Origin: an uncultured Planctomycetales bacterium
GTDB taxonomy: Bacteria > Planctomycetota > Planctomycetia > Isosphaerales > Isosphaeraceae
Assembly: GCA_903926465.1 (NCBI GenBank)
Contig: CAIYJE010000160.1
Coordinates: 1-64,000, forward strand
Direction of reading: 5' to 3'
Length of the DNA stretch: 64,000 bases
The position numbers and the translations under genes were made by a program. The notes beneath the pieces were generated by a model, which was not told the origin of the DNA, ran no database searches, and saw only the letters and a list, made by a program, of their open reading frames with translations. This document shows positions 44,211-52,778 of this stretch, piece after piece (the first letter of the stretch is position 1; each line of letters begins with the position of its first letter).

Positions 44211-44665
44211 TGTCGACTCCTTTCGCCCCAGCAAGACTGAGGCCCTACCTTTGCCTTCCCTGGCCGAACCGGCTCCTACCGGCAGACTGCGATGACCTTT
44301 TGACAGATCACCACCGCTGCCTGTGGACCAGCGTTGCTCACGTTCTCAACTCTAGTCGATTTCCCGTCAAGGTCGATCCAGCCCGGAACTCCTGCCTGAT
44401 CGCTCCAGATCATGGCAACCTGTGGCCAGATTCACAAGCGGCTCAGGCAACCGGTTCAGTTTCAGAATCCCCTTGCTACATAAGGAAATAGGATGGCAAA
44501 TCCCGGCTTCAACGGCCGGTAATCCTGGACTCTTTGGGGGTGTACAAAGCCGGCCAACCCTTGATGTGTGGACCCTGATCCTCTACCTTTACGTGCGACT
44601 TGTTTTGAGTGAGGCCTTCCAAGACCCAGGAAGTACTCATACCCCCCCAAGAGACTGTTCGTGTG
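44211..44665. other. Intergenic region between divergent genes
   Basis: About 455 bases separate the thioredoxin-fold gene and the NtrC-like gene, and hold their promoters. A short weak frame (44609-44665) extends the NtrC-like gene upstream but is unlikely to be translated. No other gene or RNA is supported. Confidence 0.35.
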
Positions 44666-46147
44666 ATGGACCACACCAAGCTCCTCATCGTGAGTGCAGA
44701 TCGTGCTGCCGCCGGCACGCTTGCACGCCCGCTGGCTGAGAGCAACTTTCATGTACGAGTGGCACTAAACGGCACCGATGCCCTTGAGTGGCTCGTTCAG
44801 GGACGGTTTCAGGCCGTGATTCTGGATGCGAGCCTGCCAGACCTCGATCCGTTTCAGATCGCCGAAGAGATTCGCCTGAAGCGGTTGCCGGTGGCCATGA
44901 TTATTGCTGCGACTGAGGAAGCTCTGGCCAAGCTTCCAGACCCGCTACCATTCTGGATTGCAGGGCTGGTTCAAATTCCTGGAGAGCCGCTGATCCTGCC
45001 CTTCCAGGTTGAGCAGGCACTCAAGGAATCCAAGGTCAGGGCACAGAATCGGCTCCTGGCAAAATCTGTACGTCGGGCTACGGATCTTCGGGGCCTGATT
45101 ACCCAAGGGCCGCCCATGGACCGGATTGCAAGGGTGGCCAAACGCTTGGCGAACCTTCAGGCACCGGTGCTGATCACCGGGGAGGCAGGCACTGGGCGGA
45201 AACGAATTGCCAGGGCAATCCATGCCACCAGTCTCACCAGCGGGCCCCTGATTCACGTGTCGTGCAAGGCCCTGCCTGAGTTCTTGCTAGACCTGGAACT
45301 GTTCGGGCATCCCACCGACCATCTCGATTTTGATGGAGCGCATGGCCTTGGAGCCGTTGACGCGGCGCGTGGTGGAACCCTGCTGCTGACCGACGTTGAC
45401 TTGCTGCCCGCACGCATTCAGGCCAAGTTGATCGCCTGGTATTCCAGCAATCGCAAAGCGCCTTGTGCAAAAACCGGCAAAGACGGTGGCCGAAAAGCGC
45501 AAGTGAGGCTGATTGCAACCGCAGGCCTGGAACTTGTGGATCGGGTCGCAAAAGGAAGCTTCAAGAAAGAACTTTACGAACTGCTGACGGCGGAATCGAT
45601 CGAGGTTCCACCGCTTCGTAAACGATCCAGGAAGCATCTGGCCAAGCTCATTCGCCTGTTCGCGGAACGGTTGAAACAAACCGGAGAAGCCGTGAGTCCG
45701 ATCTCTCGTTCCGAGATGAGTCGATTACTGGAACGCTCATGGCCTGGCAACCTTCCAGAACTCCGGCAGGCGGTGGAGTCGGTGGTGCGAGCCGCCCCAG
45801 GAGATCCCAGTCTACCCGCGCCTCATCCGGGGCTTGATGAGCCAGCCAACTCGTTCTTGAATGATTTTCACCCTGATGAACAACTCAATATCATTGTCAA
45901 TCGCGTGAAGCAACAGGTTGAGAAAGCCTATATCTGCCAGGTCATGGCTGCCTACGGCGGCAGGATCGACCGCTCGGCCGATCATTGCAATCTCTCGCGC
46001 AAGAGTATGGGGACCAAGGTTAAGCAGCACGGAATTGACAAGGCGCTATTCAAGGGACAAATGCCGGCCGCCCAATCTCCCAATATGCCGCTCCCGTTGC
46101 CGGGCCGCAAGAAAACCGAAGCCGTGCTCGAACCCTCGGAAGCCTGA
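44666..46147 (+). CDS. Degenerate NtrC-type response regulator
   Basis: A 493-residue protein with the layout of NtrC-type enhancer-binding proteins: receiver domain (about 1-120), AAA+ domain (about 150-380) and a Fis-like DNA-binding helix-turn-helix (about 415-470, QVMAAYGGRIDRSADHCN). The phospho-acceptor Asp is present in VILDASLPDLD. The AAA+ part is eroded. The Walker A lysine is Arg (GEAGTGRK at 172-179), the sigma-54 contact loop GAFTGA is gone (FGHPTDHLDFDGAHG), and Walker B reads LLLTDVDLLP without the Asp-Glu pair. It therefore should not drive sigma-54 transcription and may act as a plain DNA-binding regulator. No histidine kinase gene is adjacent. Confidence 0.85.
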   Translation: MDHTKLLIVSADRAAAGTLARPLAESNFHVRVALNGTDALEWLVQGRFQAVILDASLPDLDPFQIAEEIRLKRLPVAMIIAATEEALAKLPDPLPFWIAGLVQIPGEPLILPFQVEQALKESKVRAQNRLLAKSVRRATDLRGLITQGPPMDRIARVAKRLANLQAPVLITGEAGTGRKRIARAIHATSLTSGPLIHVSCKALPEFLLDLELFGHPTDHLDFDGAHGLGAVDAARGGTLLLTDVDLLPARIQAKLIAWYSSNRKAPCAKTGKDGGRKAQVRLIATAGLELVDRVAKGSFKKELYELLTAESIEVPPLRKRSRKHLAKLIRLFAERLKQTGEAVSPISRSEMSRLLERSWPGNLPELRQAVESVVRAAPGDPSLPAPHPGLDEPANSFLNDFHPDEQLNIIVNRVKQQVEKAYICQVMAAYGGRIDRSADHCNLSRKSMGTKVKQHGIDKALFKGQMPAAQSPNMPLPLPGRKKTEAVLEPSEA

Positions 46148-46263: not shown

Positions 46264-48918
46264 TCAGGCGGAAGTGCCGGCCGTTGTTGGTTGAAACGTG
46301 AATTCTTGACCATTCCAGTCGATCAAGATCGACACCCCCTTGTCGGGGCCAAGACTGCCATCAAGCAGGGCCGACGCCAGTGGGTTGGCAATTCGCTGCT
46401 GCAAGATCCGCTTGAGCGGCCGGGCTCCGTAGGCTGGGTCAAAGCCTTCGTCGGCAAGCTGGGTCTTGGCGGCCAGAGTGACCTGCACGGCCAACCCTGC
46501 CTCCGTCAACTGGCCCTGTAATCGTCTGAGCTGGATATCAACGATCTGGGTTAGCTCTTTGATCGTCAGCGGGTGGAAGATGATCGTTTCATCGATCCGG
46601 TTGAGGAACTCTGGCAAGAATTCTCGCTTGAGAACTTCCTGAACCGCCTGACGGATTCGGGATTCATCGCCCGTTTCGGCAAGCCGGGCAATTTCCTGAC
46701 TTCCCAGGTTCGAGGTCATGATGATGACGCTGTTCCGGAAATCGACCGTGCGGCCCTGTCCATCCGTCAGCCGGCCATCGTCCAAAACTTGCAGCAAAAC
46801 GTTAAAAACGTCTCGGTGCGCCTTTTCGATTTCGTCCAGCAGAATCACAGAGTAAGGACGACGGCGAACCGCCTCGGTTAGCTTGCCGCCCTCTTCGTAG
46901 CCGACGTAACCGGGAGGTGCGCCGATGAGTCGGCTAACGTTATGCTTCTCGCCAAATTCGCTCATGTCGATACGAACCATGGCCGTTTCGCTATCGAACA
47001 GGAACTCGGCCAGCGCCCTGGCAAGTTCGGTCTTGCCCACGCCGGTGGGGCCCAAGAACAAGAACGATCCAATCGGCTTGTTGGGATCGGCCAGCCCTGC
47101 CCTGCTCCGTCGAACCGCATCAGCCACCGCCCGCACGGCCGCATCTTGATTGACCATGCGAAGGTGAATCTGATCTTCAAGCTTAAGAAGCTTATCACGC
47201 TCGGTGGTGAGCATCTTCGAGACCGGAATACCGGTCCACTGACTCACAACCTCGGCAATCTCTTCGTGATCAACCTCCTGCTTGAGTAATCTTCGAGTGT
47301 CGCTTTTAGGGCCTTCCGCGGCGCTGGCTTCTTCTGTGCTTTCAATCCGTTTTTCGAGCTCAATCCGTTCCTGGTCAAGCCTGGCCAGTTCCTGATATTT
47401 GCGCTCGTCGGGTCGTTCTCCACGCTGCTGCATCAAACGCAGGTCGTCGAAGGCCTGCTTGTACTGCAGTTCGATTTCCGCCTTGCGATCGCGTAGTTTC
47501 TGAACGTCTCCCAGCCCAGATTTTTCCATTTCCCACTGGCGACGCAGGTCTTGCTCTTCCTTCTGAAGTACGGCAATTTCTTCGCGGACCTCGGCCAGTC
47601 GATCCTGGGCATGCTGTTCGGTTTCGGTCTCAAGCATCCGTTCCGCCAGTTGAAGCTGGAGCAACCTGCGTTGGATGACATCAATCTCGGTGGGAACAGA
47701 CTGCAACTCCATGGCCAGGCGGCTGGCGGCCTCATCGACCAGGTCGATCGCCTTGTCGGGCAAGAATCGTTCCGTGATATAGCGAGATGAGAGTTTGGCA
47801 GCCGCAACCAGGGCCGAGTCTTTGATTTTCACCTTATGGTGAACTTCGTACTTGGCCTTGATACCTCTCAGGATTGCAATGGTGTCTTCAACGGTTGGTT
47901 CTCCTACGAACACGGGCTGAAACCGCCGCTCAAGCGCGGGGTCTTTTTCGATATGTTCGCGGAATTCATCGAGGGTTGTTGCGCCGATGGCCCGCAACTC
48001 GCCTCGCGCGAGTGCCGGCTTGAGCAGGTTGGCGGCGTCCATGGCACCATCGGCCTTACCGGCCCCAACCAGCAAGTGAAGTTCGTCGATGAAGAGGATG
48101 ATCCGCCCTTCCGACGTGCTTACCTCTTTGATGACGGCCTTGAGACGTTCCTCGAACTCACCTCGAAACTTGGTGCCGGCTACCAGTGCGCCCATATCCA
48201 GCGCAATCAGCTTCCGGTTCTGAAGGCTTTCCGGCACATCTCCCGAGACGATCCGCTGGGCTAGTCCCTCAACGATGGCCGTTTTGCCCACACCTGGGTC
48301 ACCAATAAGTACGGGATTGTTCTTGGTCCGGCGCGACAGGACCTGAACCACCCGGCGGATCTCGCTATCGCGACCGATGACCGGATCAACCTTCCCCTGG
48401 CGTGCAAGTTCGACCAGATCTCGGCCGTACTTCTCCAGGGCCTGATACTTATCTTCGGCATTCTGGTCCGTGACCCGATGCGAGCCTCGCACCTTCTGAA
48501 CGGCCTTCATCAGGCTGTCGGGAGTGGCCCCAAGAGCGCTTAGCAACTCTTGCACACGTCCCTTCACCCTGGATAAACCCAGGAGCAGGTGCTCGACCGA
48601 GACGAACTGATCTTTCATCCGGTCGGCTTCGGCCTGAGCCTCATCAAAGACCTTATTGAGGTCTGAACTCATGGTCATCTCTCCCCCGCTTACCTGGGGA
48701 AGAGATTTCAAGCCGTCCTCGGCGGCTCGCCTGATCTGATCGGGGTTCAAGCCAAGCTGGCCGACCAGCGATCGAACCACCGTTTGTTCATTATCAAGGA
48801 GCGCAGCCAAGAGGTGTAGCGGTTCCAGCCGCTGGTTCTGATGCTCGCGTGCAATTTCTTGCGCTCTTTGAACGGCTTCTTGACTTTTGAGCGTCAACTT
48901 GTCGAATCGAAATGCCAT
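46264..48918 (-). CDS. clpB: ClpB disaggregase
   Basis: ClpB is a hexameric AAA+ chaperone that pulls proteins out of aggregates with DnaK. From ATG 48918 ([17 protein letters not shown]) it has 884 residues, near the family norm. It has the N-terminal Clp repeat domain (about 1-145), a first AAA+ domain with [13 protein letters not shown], a long coiled-coil middle domain rich in Glu, Arg and Gln ([18 protein letters not shown]), and a second AAA+ domain with [17 protein letters not shown]. The middle domain marks it as ClpB rather than ClpC. dnaK lies 1.4 kb upstream on the same strand. Confidence 0.97.
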
Positions 48919-49011
48919 GATCTGGTTCCCCCCCAAGAACTCCCAGGCCGGGTGAACTGACCCCGATCCGCGGGAGAACGCATGTCGATACTCTTACGAA
49001 ATCCGAGACAT

Positions 49012-49416
49012 TCAAGTTCGATTTTCGGCGGAAGGTCCTGCCATCAAATCACCAGGAACAAAATTCCTGGCCAGGTTGAGCAGTTCGCGTGGAGGCTGCT
49101 TTGGCCAGGCCGCTTGCCAGCATGCGCTTAGTGCCTCTGTCCAGCATAGGTCCAAGTCTGTGCCTGGGCCACTCGCAAAAAAACCACCGCCCGGCCGCCC
49201 ACTGTCCTTGCGCACAACCAAAGCAGCAGGATCAGGCCGCCCAAGCTTTCTGCACATGGCAGAAAGCGGGATCAGCAATTGGCGGTGCAGGTACCTTCGA
49301 TTCAAGGGCGGCCCAACACGGCCAGCGAGTTCCGTGTAGGTGAGTGTGCGGCCCTGGCGGGCCGCTTCTCGAAATATGGGCCACGATCTCTGAATCAGGT
49401 CCGTGAGTGAGTTCAT
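49012..49416 (-). CDS. Small protein, related to the gene at 49773-50180
   Basis: A 134-residue protein from ATG 49416; a TTG at 49440 would add eight residues. The core reads LTYTELAGRVG, then RQLLIPLSAMCRKLGRPDPAALVVRKDSG and GGGF, a pattern shared with the gene 360 bases away (VTYDEFCNRC, VLRPVQTLC, GQPDLASLV). The fold is probably a small alpha/beta winged helix that recurs in single-domain bacterial proteins, but no function is known to me. It ends 93 bases before clpB on the same strand, so it may share its transcript. Confidence 0.65.
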   Translation of the reverse strand: MNSLTDLIQRSWPIFREAARQGRTLTYTELAGRVGPPLNRRYLHRQLLIPLSAMCRKLGRPDPAALVVRKDSGRPGGGFFASGPGTDLDLCWTEALSACWQAAWPKQPPRELLNLARNFVPGDLMAGPSAENRT

Positions 49417-49772
49417 CGGTTGCGGAGAAGTGTTGGCCAACGATGACGTCCCTCACCCCTCTCCATTGTTTTTGAGACTCGAGTGGGGCGGACCATAGCG
49501 TCCACGGTCAGGCTTGCCAGCAAAGATTGAAGTCTCAAAGGAAGCCGCGATGGCTTTTTCTCTCAGGCCTGGGCTCTCAAAGAGCAACTGGGCAAGCCAA
49601 GGAGGTTGATCCGCTGGCAGGGCAAGTCTTCCAATGTCAGCCAGATCTCTCTGGCCATGGTCTTCCCATTGACCAGCGTCTTTTTTTGATAGCCATCAAC
49701 CTTGGGTTGGGATATGCACCCAGCCGGCCCAGATTCCCAGAGGGAATCAGGGCGTTAGCTCTATGCCGTGGC
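49417..49772. other. Intergenic gap between the two related genes
   Basis: 356 bases without a supported gene. Open frames on both strands are short and unlike any family. The length would allow a promoter for the gene ending at 49012. Confidence 0.35.
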
Positions 49773-50180
49773 TCAGAAAAACGGGGCTTCGGTCCAGGAT
49801 TCGTTATCACGTGCTTGGCGGTACTTGGCAAACCAGAAGTCGATATCGCCGGTCTGGGTCTCACCGTTGGCCACGTAGGGATCCCACCAACCGTCTGCCG
49901 GCTTGATCAGAATGCCTGAGTCTGAACGGCTCTTAGGCTTTTGAATCACGAGCGAAGCGAGGTCGGGCTGCCCATGCTCCAGGCAAAGAGTTTGTACCGG
50001 CCGTAACACCCGCCCCATGATGGTTCGAGGCGTTTCCTTCATCCCAATGTTATGGCACCGGTTGCAGAATTCATCGTAGGTCACCCAGGGGACTGGCCTC
50101 CGCTCACGAGCGGCTGCTGCCAGCTCTTGCGCGATTCGGACAAGAAGAGGGTAGGCCAGGCGGGCATTATCAATCGACAT
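49773..50180 (-). CDS. Small protein, related to the gene at 49012-49416
   Basis: A 135-residue protein from ATG 50180. The N-terminal helix (LAYPLLVRIAQELAAAARERRPV) is followed by VTYDEFCNRCHNIG, VLRPVQTLCLEHGQPDLASLVIQK and an acidic-aromatic tail (DGWWDPY, DIDFWFAKYRQARDN). It aligns with its neighbour over TY-E, the conserved Cys and G-x-PD-A-LV. It lies 89 bases after the dnaK hairpin's far side, on the same strand as dnaK and clpB. No known function. Confidence 0.65.
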   Translation of the reverse strand: MSIDNARLAYPLLVRIAQELAAAARERRPVPWVTYDEFCNRCHNIGMKETPRTIMGRVLRPVQTLCLEHGQPDLASLVIQKPKSRSDSGILIKPADGWWDPYVANGETQTGDIDFWFAKYRQARDNESWTEAPFF

Positions 50181-50280
50181 TATTTCACACCAAGGGCTTC
50201 AGGAGTTGGCCCGTCGCGTCGAAGAGGCACACGACAAGATAATTGGATAATACCTTAAATCGCCCTTTTCTGGAAACAGA

Positions 50281-50314
50281 AGGCGGGATGCAACTTTGCA
50301 GAAGCATCCCGCCT
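50281..50314 (-). terminator. dnaK terminator
   Basis: Perfect 11-bp arms AGGCGGGATGC and GCATCCCGCCT flank a 12-base loop, 45 bases after the dnaK stop. A short T-rich tail (TCTGTTTCC) follows on the minus strand. Confidence 0.75.
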
Positions 50315-50358
50315 GGGTCCCATCACTGGGCAAAAATCATAAGTCTGGCGGCCTGAAC

Positions 50359-52290
50359 TTATTTCTTTTCTTCAAACTCAACGTCGATCACATCGTCTCC
50401 CTTGCCGGCAGATTTTCCGGCTTCGGGTTCCGCATGTGCTGCCGCTTCCTCACCAGGGGCTCCGGTGGGGCCCGCCTGGGCCGATGAGGCATAAAGGTGC
50501 TCAGCCATGGCCTGGCTGGCCTTCTGAAGAGACTCAATCCCCTGCTGAATGGCAGCGAGATCGTCGCCCTTCTTGGCCTCAGAAAGAACGGCAATCGCCT
50601 GCTGAATAGCCGATTGGTCGGTTTCGCTCAGCTTGTCCTTGTTCTCTTCGACCAGTTTTTCAAGCTGGTAAATCCGCTGTTCGGCAACGTTTCTGGCTTC
50701 CGCCAGTTCACGCTTCTTCTTGTCTTCAGACGCATGAGATTCGGCGTCTCGCTGCATCCGATCAATTTCGTCCTTGGAAAGGCCGCCAGAAGACTGGATG
50801 GTGATCTTCTGTTCTTTGCCGGTCCCCTTATCACGGGCACCAACGGCCAGAATACCGTTGGCGTCAATGTTGAAAGAAACCTCAATCTGGGGCACCCCCA
50901 TCCGTGCTGGCGGAATCCCTTCAAGGTTGAATTCACCCAGCAGACGGTTGTCGCCGGCCATCGGACGCTCACCCTGGTACACCTTGATGGTGACCGCGGT
51001 CTGCATGTCGTCGGCGGTGGTGAAGGTTTCTTTCTTTTCGGTGGGGATGGTCGTATTGCGGGGCACAAGCACGGTCATCACGCCGCCCTTGGTCTCCAGG
51101 CCCAGAGAAAGCGGCGTCACATCCAGCAGCAGAACGTCTTTCTGCTCGCCTGTGAGGACAGCCCCCTGAATGGCCGCGCCAACCGCCACGACCTCGTCGG
51201 GATTGACCCCCTTGTGGGGTTCTTTGCCGAAGACTTCCTTGACGATCTGCTGCACGCGGGGCATGCGGGTGGAACCACCCACCATCACCACTTCGTCGAT
51301 GTCGGCCGGTTTCAGCTTGGCGTCTTCCAGGGCCCGGATCACGGGTCCACGGCACCGTTCAAACAGCGAATCGGTCAACTTCTCGAACTGAGACCGGGTC
51401 ACGGTCATTGTGAGGTGCTTGGGCGTGCCGCTGGCATCCATGGTCACGAACGGCAGGTTGATGTCCGTTTGAGACTGGAATGAAAGGTCCTTCTTGGCCT
51501 TCTCCGCAGCTTCCTTGAGCCGCTGCAAGGCCATTGGATCCTTGCGCAGATCGACCCCGTGATCTTTCTGGAAGTCGTCGGCGATGTGGTTGATCAACGC
51601 CTCGTCCCAGTCATCGCCACCGAGGTGCGTGTCACCGTTGGTGGAAAGAACTTCGAAAACTCCATCGCCCACGTCGAGGATAGAGATGTCAAAGGTGCCG
51701 CCACCCAGGTCGAACACCGCAATCTTTTCGTTCTTTTTCTTATCAAGCCCATAAGCCAACGCACCTGCCGTTGGTTCATTGATGATTCGGGCGACCTCCA
51801 GGCCGGCAATCAATCCCGCGTCCTTGGTAGCCTGCCGCTGGGCATCATTGAAATACGCAGGAACCGTGATCACGGCCTTGCGTACCTTGTGGCCCAGGTA
51901 ACTTTCGGCAGCCTCTTTCAGCTTGCGAAGGATGAGCGCAGACACCTCGGGAGGTGTCATGTCTTTGCCGCCCACATGAACCTTCACGTACTCGCCGGGT
52001 CCGCCAACCACCTGGTATGGAACCAGTTTTTCCTCGTCGGCCACCTCATTGTGACGACGACCCATGAACCGCTTGATCGAATAAATCGTGTTCTTGGGGT
52101 TGGTCACAATCTGGCGACGGGCCGGTTCACCGACCAAGGTCTCTCCCTTGCTCGTGAACGCCACAACCGAGGGAGTCAGGCGGCTGCCTTCCTGGTTGGG
52201 AATGACGACGGTTTCACCGCCCTCACGAACCGACACAACACTATTCGTGGTGCCCAGGTCGATCCCGATGATCTTTTCACCTTCAGCCAC
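50359..52290 (-). CDS. dnaK: Chaperone DnaK (Hsp70)
   Basis: DnaK binds exposed hydrophobic segments in an ATP-driven cycle with DnaJ and GrpE. I place the start at GTG 52290 (643 residues): GAGGAG lies 7 bases upstream, and an ATG at 52305 lies inside or before this site and would add five residues. Visible are [11 protein letters not shown], the ATPase motif [21 protein letters not shown] and the substrate domain [12 protein letters not shown]. The C-terminal lid ends in the usual [10 protein letters not shown]. No dnaJ or grpE gene is next to it, and no CIRCE element was seen upstream. Confidence 0.97.
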
Positions 52291-52778
52291 GGTTCCGCTC
52301 CTCATCCCAACAGGAATTGACAGTTATGGGTCATGTCCGCATTACTTGGCAACCACCGGCCATCGCAATGGCTCAGTCGGCCTTGGAATGGGACCTCGTT
52401 ATCTCTTCCAAGAAGAGAGCAACCCCGATGCCAGACAGAGCAAAGCTGTCTATTTTTGATTACAAGTCTTTTGGAGAAAAGGAAATAAATTATTGAACGG
52501 ATAAAATTCAGGCTCACTCCATTAGCCTGTGGGTGCCATTGTGGCATGCTCTAAAAATACCCCGAATGCCCGACTGCCAGTATGGCATCATCGGTCGAAA
52601 CCATGAGGTTCAAGGCCGTGAGATGCATTCGATTGGGGAGTCGCTTCCAAACTCGATTCTCGGGCCGTTGACACCGCTGACGGAGCCGGTTATCTCATGA
52701 TAGGTGCATGATCACTCAGACCTTTCAAGATTCGTGTCTGAGACCCTTTGTTTTCTGACACAGTTGCCTGGATATCCG
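52291..52778. other. Intergenic region between dnaK and pheA
   Basis: 488 bases between divergent genes, holding both promoters. I searched for the CIRCE repeat (TTAGCACTC-N9-GAGTGCTAA) and did not find it. A small dyad TGCCA-TTG-TGGCA lies at 52534-52546, and AGGCT/AGCCT flanks 52510-52528; either could be an operator. No gene is supported. Confidence 0.35.

Follow-up and report, generated by a model that had tools for sequence, protein, structure and literature searches.

Two paralogous genes between dnaK and clpB in Isosphaeraceae encode candidate DNA-binding proteins possibly related to alkyltransferase-like proteins

Introduction

Base flipping by human MGMT is driven by Tyr114 together with an arginine finger, Arg128, and the alkyltransferase-like proteins (ATLs) keep this tyrosine and arginine finger but lose the cysteine, according to the accessible part of PMC10779285. 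In ATLs the Cys of the PCHR motif is mostly replaced by Trp. A small regulator is also known from the dnaK operons of actinobacteria, namely HspR, whose fold family is MerR.

Here we describe two small genes, P1 and P2, located between dnaK and clpB in a stretch of 64,000 nucleotides (referred to as the window) from an uncultured Planctomycetales bacterium of the family Isosphaeraceae. Both proteins were compared with MGMT, with ATLs and with HspR. No paper on the pair or on the wider family to which P1 belongs was found in the open-access PMC literature, and the words MGMT and alkyltransferase are absent from the accessible parts of PMC12839542 and PMC10853773.

Results and Discussion

Arrangement and relatedness of P1 and P2

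The genes at the locus are all on the minus strand in the order dnaK-P2-P1-clpB. The dnaK gene (50359..52305) is the upstream neighbour of P2 (49773..50180, 135 aa), while clpB (46264..48918, from ATG, with a TTG start at 48936 also possible) is the downstream neighbour of P1 (49012..49416, 134 aa). A sequence-only reading of the window had proposed two related small genes between clpB and dnaK, and both frames were recovered there on the minus strand. P1 has an alternative TTG start at 49440 (frame 49012-49440), but since homologues begin at the internal ATG at 49416, this is probably the start. The P2-P1 interval (49417..49772, minus strand) is the site of a Uma2 gene in some relatives.

The proposed relatedness of the two genes was borne out both by BLASTP (32% identity over 69 aa, E 9e-8) and by comparison of the P1 profile with the P2 profile (E 1.9e-13), and by these matches P1 and P2 are paralogues. 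A joint alignment of 19 rows contained the invariant columns R23, Y27, R41, L48, C55, P61, D62, L66, G73, P75, W92 and W104 (P1 numbering). The TY-E, Cys and PD-A-LV elements that had been read as common to the pair are mostly family-wide, although the E and the A vary in P2. Alignments of P1 and P2 from the genomes of the window's family comprised 14 of 16 P1 sequences (L053 and L057 excluded) and 17 of 20 P2 sequences (L061, L063 and L064 excluded), and those from the GTDB set comprised 10 of the 11 P1 loci (L086 excluded) and, in a further alignment, 8 of 11 loci (L082, L085 and L086 excluded). With respect to selection, dN/dS was 0.04-0.23 for P1 (six of eight pairs, dS not being computable in two) and 0.03-0.19 for P2 (11 pairs). 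P1 and P2 are therefore real genes under purifying selection, and chance frames were ruled out both by these low ratios and by conservation among the family genomes.

Resemblance to MGMT and ATL proteins

Scans of the window's P1 and P2 against Pfam, NCBIfam, PHROG and PADLOC produced nothing at E 10. A search of the PDB by sequence profile gave nothing for P1 and four chance-level rows for P2, and no relatives of P1 or P2 were found in IMG/VR. No match above a curated cut-off placed the pair in a known family of established function, in keeping with the earlier view of it as uncharacterised. Below the cut-off, the MGMT DNA-binding domain (PF01035) matched 9 of 19 P1/P2 members with a best E of 0.0015. 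In a run over 45 genomes it matched at the P1 place in 10 of the 16 P1 genomes (E 0.004-0.07), 8 of the 18 sub-cut-off rows in that run being non-P1, and it did not match the window's own P1 or P2. The ogt model TIGR00589 matched 4 of 12 rows (best E 0.011). A P1 profile searched against 294 genomes of the phylum gave matches in 11, the window included. Two of the matched proteins, L066 (E 1.3e-8) and L067 (E 1.6e-7), are real relatives, and eight are PCHR proteins, that is, true alkyltransferases (E 4e-4 to 1e-3); the remaining matches were L068, which has no clear family, and L078, which was read on one strand. The P2 profile matched only the window across 294 genomes of the phylum, a draw that contained few members of the window's own family.

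The resemblance of P1 to the C-terminal domain of MGMT, Ogt and Ada (PF01035) lies in the TYxELA helix and in the Arg of the recognition helix. P1 residues Y27 and R41 align without gaps with the Tyr and Arg of the MGMT helix-turn-helix, and by motif their equivalents in human MGMT are Tyr114 and Arg128; this local match covers 25-29 columns, and the MGMTs in it were chosen by the same P1 profile. Both residues are invariant in P1, as are the counterparts Y35 and R52 in P2, so that on alignment evidence the base-flipping Tyr and the Arg finger, a feature of ATLs, appear to be kept in both proteins. The presumed recognition helix of P1 is basic, with a charge of +4 to +6 in 13 of 14 rows, the remaining row (L052) being mis-anchored. 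The P2 profile did not match the MGMTs (probability 0.4%), and an MGMT/ATL-like helix-turn-helix is tentatively assigned to P2 by its homology to P1.

The catalytic motif of MGMT was absent. PCHR was found in none of 14 P1 rows, 17 P2 rows and seven rows of the wider family (A6, described below), and P[CW]HR and HR[VI] were likewise absent from the P1 and P2 rows, which sets the pair apart from ATLs as well as from MGMT. When the LPDLAALVV stretch past the recognition helix was set in ungapped register against PCHR, no offset stood out. An invariant Cys (C55 in P1, C66 in P2) is common to P1, P2 and A6; global profile alignment placed Cys55 near the MGMT Cys, and in the P1 model it is within the helix 40-57. 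A further difference from MGMT is that 44 of 45 family genomes also possess, as a separate gene, a PF01035 member that exceeds the cut-off. The pair was not filed as MGMT or as ATL, since a test for a defining motif showed it to be missing. P1 and P2 may nevertheless work like an ATL: as in S. pombe Atl1, a single domain without the nucleophile would retain the Tyr and the Arg finger (ATL features as given in the accessible part of PMC10779285).

Predicted structures

AlphaFold models were obtained with pLDDT values of 87.8 for P1 and 89.7 for P2. Neither model had a Foldseek match in the PDB at E <=0.001; alkyltransferases made up 11 of the 14 listed rows for P1, while the alkyltransferase family accounted for 2 of 31 listed rows for P2. 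With VIA, 33 of 35 rows for the P1 model were MGMT or ATL (Z 2.8-6.5 over 78-86 residues), DNA-bound Atl1 (3gx4) among them at Z 5.7, and among the listed rows the predicted P1 fold was nearest to MGMT. For the P2 model MGMT was leading with 7 of 20 rows (4wxd, Z 5.3), the winged helices of ORC2 and PhoB being close. All of these Z values are below 8 and middling by the tool's own scale, and those for P1 are given weight because they agree with the sequence evidence. The P1 model differed from MGMT in its longer presumed recognition helix. Taken with the alignments, the models support, though they do not prove, an MGMT/ATL-type helix-turn-helix, which is better backed for P1 than for P2.

A wider family of P1-like proteins

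The P1 relative L066 led to a wider set of 14 records, on plasmids of other phyla. Seven proteins of this set (A6) represent a family of about 120-190 aa found on plasmids (Nostoc, Enterobacter, Deinococcus, Klebsiella, Caballeronia) and in two planctomycetes, with the signature TYGEL...L...C...LPPL..LVV....PG. The P1 profile matched A6 at E 1.8e-17 over 92 columns, spanning most of P1 with the signature residues in common, and the P2 profile matched at E 1.4e-8 over 48 columns. When an A6 profile built without P1 and without P2 was run over 392 genomes, seven of these gave a match, comprising two of its own rows, four new ones and the window's P1 (E 1.1e-8); P2 was not listed at E 1e-4. By profile match, P1 thus belongs to a wider uncurated family. 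PF01035 matched two of the seven A6 members below the cut-off (best E 0.0045). The R41 column lacks Arg in all seven A6 rows, so the Arg finger would be a feature of P1 and P2 at best; L067 and L112 have an Arg one column further on.

Unlike P1 and P2, the members of this wider family are not at a dnaK-clpB locus, and several are linked or fused to restriction-type genes. One member is directly before an HsdM/N6-methylase gene (L132), another is fused to a stretch that matches an REase fold below the cut-off (L133, E 7e-4), and a partial member match is beside a marginal, sub-cut-off Uma2 frame (L136, E 0.011). Helicase, GmrSD-type and EVE genes are near the Nostoc member (L110), dcm and DUF4928 genes are near the Enterobacter members on the other strand (L109, L125), and in Caballeronia (L113) one gene separates the member from a PD-(D/E)XK gene. 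No restriction-type partner was found in the stretch seen at eight loci, namely Deinococcus L111 (with VapC and AbiEii genes) and L126, Klebsiella L112 and L124, Gordonia phage L127, and L130, L131 and L134. At the loci from the 392-genome search the flanks were about 1.5 kb each, and absent partners there therefore mean little. The restriction-type neighbourhood of the wider family was counted without a null and is regarded as a lead. The annotation of the named records shows no chaperone gene next to the wider relatives taken from them.

IMG/VR contained one locus each for two wider members. A Klebsiella plasmid member used as query found nothing in E. coli genomes (by a distant DNA search) nor in phages. 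The Klebsiella plasmid at L124 is a ColRNAI-type plasmid of 4773 bases with a distant A6-family member among its eight annotated features. Taken together, these searches describe an uncurated family with a putative alkyltransferase-type helix-turn-helix and without PCHR, present here in four phyla and on plasmids, of which one branch is fixed at a core chaperone locus in Isosphaeraceae.

Distribution and inheritance of the pair

The distribution of the pair was determined in 45 genomes, which represent the window's order and all come from a single family. At E 0.001, P1 or P2 was present in 24 of the 45, P1 in 16 and P2 in 20, with both in 12, P2 alone in eight and P1 alone in four. At this threshold homologues were at this locus only, and at E 0.1 two more weak places were found (contig 344 of G043, and G001). 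The 11 P1 loci in the GTDB set were labelled Tautonia sociabilis (one), Isosphaeraceae (three), Planctomycetota bacterium (three), bacterium (one) and Candidatus Kuenenia stuttgartiensis (three); the last three are MAGs, and their contigs are of genus g18 of the window's family.

Apart from the window there are 23 carrier loci. At every one of them the P genes are 3' of dnaK on the same strand, and at 22 they are flanked by both chaperone genes. The location does not vary freely; free variation was an outcome that the sequence-only reading had named as counting against it. The exception is L058 (G006), where clpB is on another contig, away from the pair. Among the 21 non-carriers, 19 had a clpB match at the threshold. 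In 15 of these 19 clpB regions dnaK and clpB are adjacent, 143-482 bases apart as measured between match ends rather than annotated starts; in three, all of genus g12, other ORFs separate the two genes, and in one, also of g12, there was no dnaK match in the stretch. None of the 19 regions had a P1/P2 profile match at E 1. Four g12 loci (L090, L091, L102 and L104) have other small ORFs 5' of clpB with P1 and P2 absent, and one marginal HEPN match was seen there. The distances of P1 and P2 were correlated with DnaK and ClpB distances (r 0.59-0.85; DnaK versus ClpB gave 0.64), and on a DnaK+ClpB tree P1 needs six changes and P2 four. The pair is resident and vertically inherited with dnaK and clpB, in a synteny that is strict and of long standing.

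The Uma2 gene at the locus

A Uma2 gene (PF05685) is present between P2 and P1 or clpB in 9 of the 24 carrier loci. Three were tested against PF05685 and matched at E 1.4e-19 to 7.8e-25. The L051 gene is broken across two frames, and in L048 the match crosses a stop near its end. The remaining 15 carriers, the window included, have no Uma2 gene, and no remnant was found in the P2-P1 gap of the window. Uma2 genes are numerous in some of these genomes (38 in G040, 57 in G008, five in the window's genome). However, when the Uma2 from locus L061 was used as query at E 1e-40, it matched in 8 of 45 genomes, as a single copy in each and always at this locus beside P2. The Uma2 gene is therefore a locus-specific third gene.

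Proposed role of P1 and P2

The explanation that we favour, tentatively, is that P1 and P2 are nucleophile-less, ATL-like DNA readers which are inherited with the chaperones and sometimes accompanied by a nuclease. They would be paralogous relatives of the DNA-binding half of the O6-alkylguanine-DNA alkyltransferases without the nucleophile, each protein probably consisting of a single winged helix-turn-helix domain, for which both sequence and predicted fold argue, more strongly for P1. This domain would grip duplex DNA, and the invariant Tyr and Arg, which align to the base-flipping Tyr and the arginine finger, could allow P1 and P2 to probe or flip a base. As the PCHR motif is missing no base repair would be expected, and the proteins would act as readers. 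Their likeliest job may be to recognise a base that is modified or damaged, either alone or together with a local nuclease, given the restriction-type neighbours in the wider family and the locus-specific Uma2 beside P2. The sequence-only reading had offered a two-component recognition system as one possibility; the evidence does not establish a two-component system, and a recognition role is plausible in view of the MGMT/ATL-type helix-turn-helix and the restriction-type neighbours. If this family does read modified or damaged bases, the ATL idea would be extended beyond O6-alkylguanine repair.

An unlikely alternative is that the gap between dnaK and clpB tolerates the landing of conflict-type genes (the P genes, Uma2, HEPN) and that P1 and P2 are passengers there with no tie to the chaperones. 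The filling of the gap by other ORFs in genus g12, one with the marginal HEPN match, would fit this, as would the presence of Uma2 in some loci and its breakage in one, and the occurrence of wider members on plasmids. In contrast, passengers would not be expected to track DnaK and ClpB in their distances or to need so few changes on the tree, and purifying selection together with the lack of copies elsewhere in the 45 genomes at E 0.001 also speaks against such a landing site.

Transcription signals

A sigma54-type element (52418..52433, minus strand) is upstream of dnaK in the window. A -24/-12 element of this type with at least 10 of 12 positions was found in 33 of 37 dnaK upstreams (0.83 expected), that is, in the window and in 32 of 36 other loci (L042-L108), whether or not these carry the P genes. 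It was found in none of 20 P2 upstreams, none of 16 P1 upstreams and 1 of 42 clpB upstreams. This agrees with sigma54 control of a cluster that includes DnaK and further chaperones in Planctomycetia, as predicted in the accessible part of a 2025 computational study (PMC12316311). Before clpB, an ECF-type element, GAAC-N17-CGTA (48995..49019, minus strand), overlaps the 3' end of P1 and is the probable clpB promoter. This pattern preceded clpB in 24 of 42 regions (0.10 expected), or in 27 of 42 with a spacer of N15-18 (0.32 expected), and the N15-18 form was present in 21 of 23 carrier and 6 of 19 non-carrier regions, the six all being of genus g17. The ECF-type pattern was in none of the 20 P2 or 16 P1 upstreams, and its N15-18 form was in 2 of 37 dnaK upstreams. 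As the sigma54 and ECF shapes were first spotted by eye in the same sequences, the expected counts apply to fixed patterns and not to a blind search.

Just 3' of dnaK there is a terminator-like hairpin (50280..50315, minus strand) without a listed T tail, which was not among the results of a consensus terminator scan; the fold of 50265-50330 has an energy of -33.4 kcal/mol (z -5.4). Inverted repeats with arms of at least 11 bases followed dnaK in 28 of 42 loci, whether carriers or not, and occurred in 1 of 37 dnaK upstreams, counted without a shuffle control. A possible sigma70-type P2 promoter, TTTCCA-18-TATTAT (50247..50276, minus strand), is not above chance by itself (one found, 1.2 expected). 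A single dnaK-P2-P1-clpB operon is unlikely, since dnaK has a sigma54-type promoter and a 3' hairpin and clpB has a probable ECF-type promoter. The P2-P1 pair, although passed on vertically together with the two chaperone genes, probably forms its own transcription unit. Co-transcription may occur in genus g14, in which P2 lies close to clpB and no ECF element is present.

These signals bear on a second, rather unlikely alternative, in which P1 and P2 are local transcription regulators of the chaperone genes that bind the dnaK or clpB promoter in the manner of HspR. Like HspR, each would be encoded by a small DNA-binding-type gene adjoining dnaK. The strict dnaK-clpB position and the helix-turn-helix type of fold are consistent with such a role, as are the overlap of the clpB ECF-type element with the end of P1 and the excess of that element in carriers. 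However, the latter link comes down to three phylogenetically independent pairs and lacks significance, and the sigma54 element of dnaK is the same in carriers and non-carriers. The window contained no CIRCE site, and three HAIR sites with up to 3 mismatches compared with 2.2 expected, none near dnaK. When the best repeat from each of five intergenic regions was inspected by eye, no operator palindrome common to carriers was apparent. The fold family of HspR is, moreover, a different one.

A possible nuclease partnership and the chaperone-cofactor alternative

A more specific form of the DNA-reader explanation is that P2-Uma2-P1 constitutes a reader-nuclease-reader module, in which two diverged ATL-fold sensors of a modified or damaged base would direct a dedicated Uma2, the readers having been domesticated at dnaK-clpB in lineages most of which lost the nuclease or never had it. 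We consider this improbable. Of the 24 carrier loci, 9 have the nuclease gene that such a module calls for, in one case in broken form, and the window does not have it. If true, P2-Uma2-P1 would represent a modified-DNA sensing module of a new kind, linking DNA surveillance with a protein-folding stress locus.

The sequence-only reading had further suggested a chaperone-linked pair. Its positional part was upheld by the restriction of the pair to this locus among the 45 genomes at E 0.001. Its functional part was not, the transcription signals appearing to be separate and the wider relatives in named records having no annotated chaperone beside them; positional linkage by itself does not imply functional coupling with the chaperones. 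That P1 and P2 act with the DnaK and ClpB proteins as cofactors or as a two-component recognition system, for which their position speaks, is very improbable given the nucleic-acid-binding type of fold, the chaperone-free surroundings of the wider relatives, the retention of dnaK and clpB in non-carriers and the separate promoter-like signals.

On the far side of clpB, an NtrC-like regulator gene (44609-46147, plus strand) is convergent with clpB, and homologous matches were found near clpB in five other loci.
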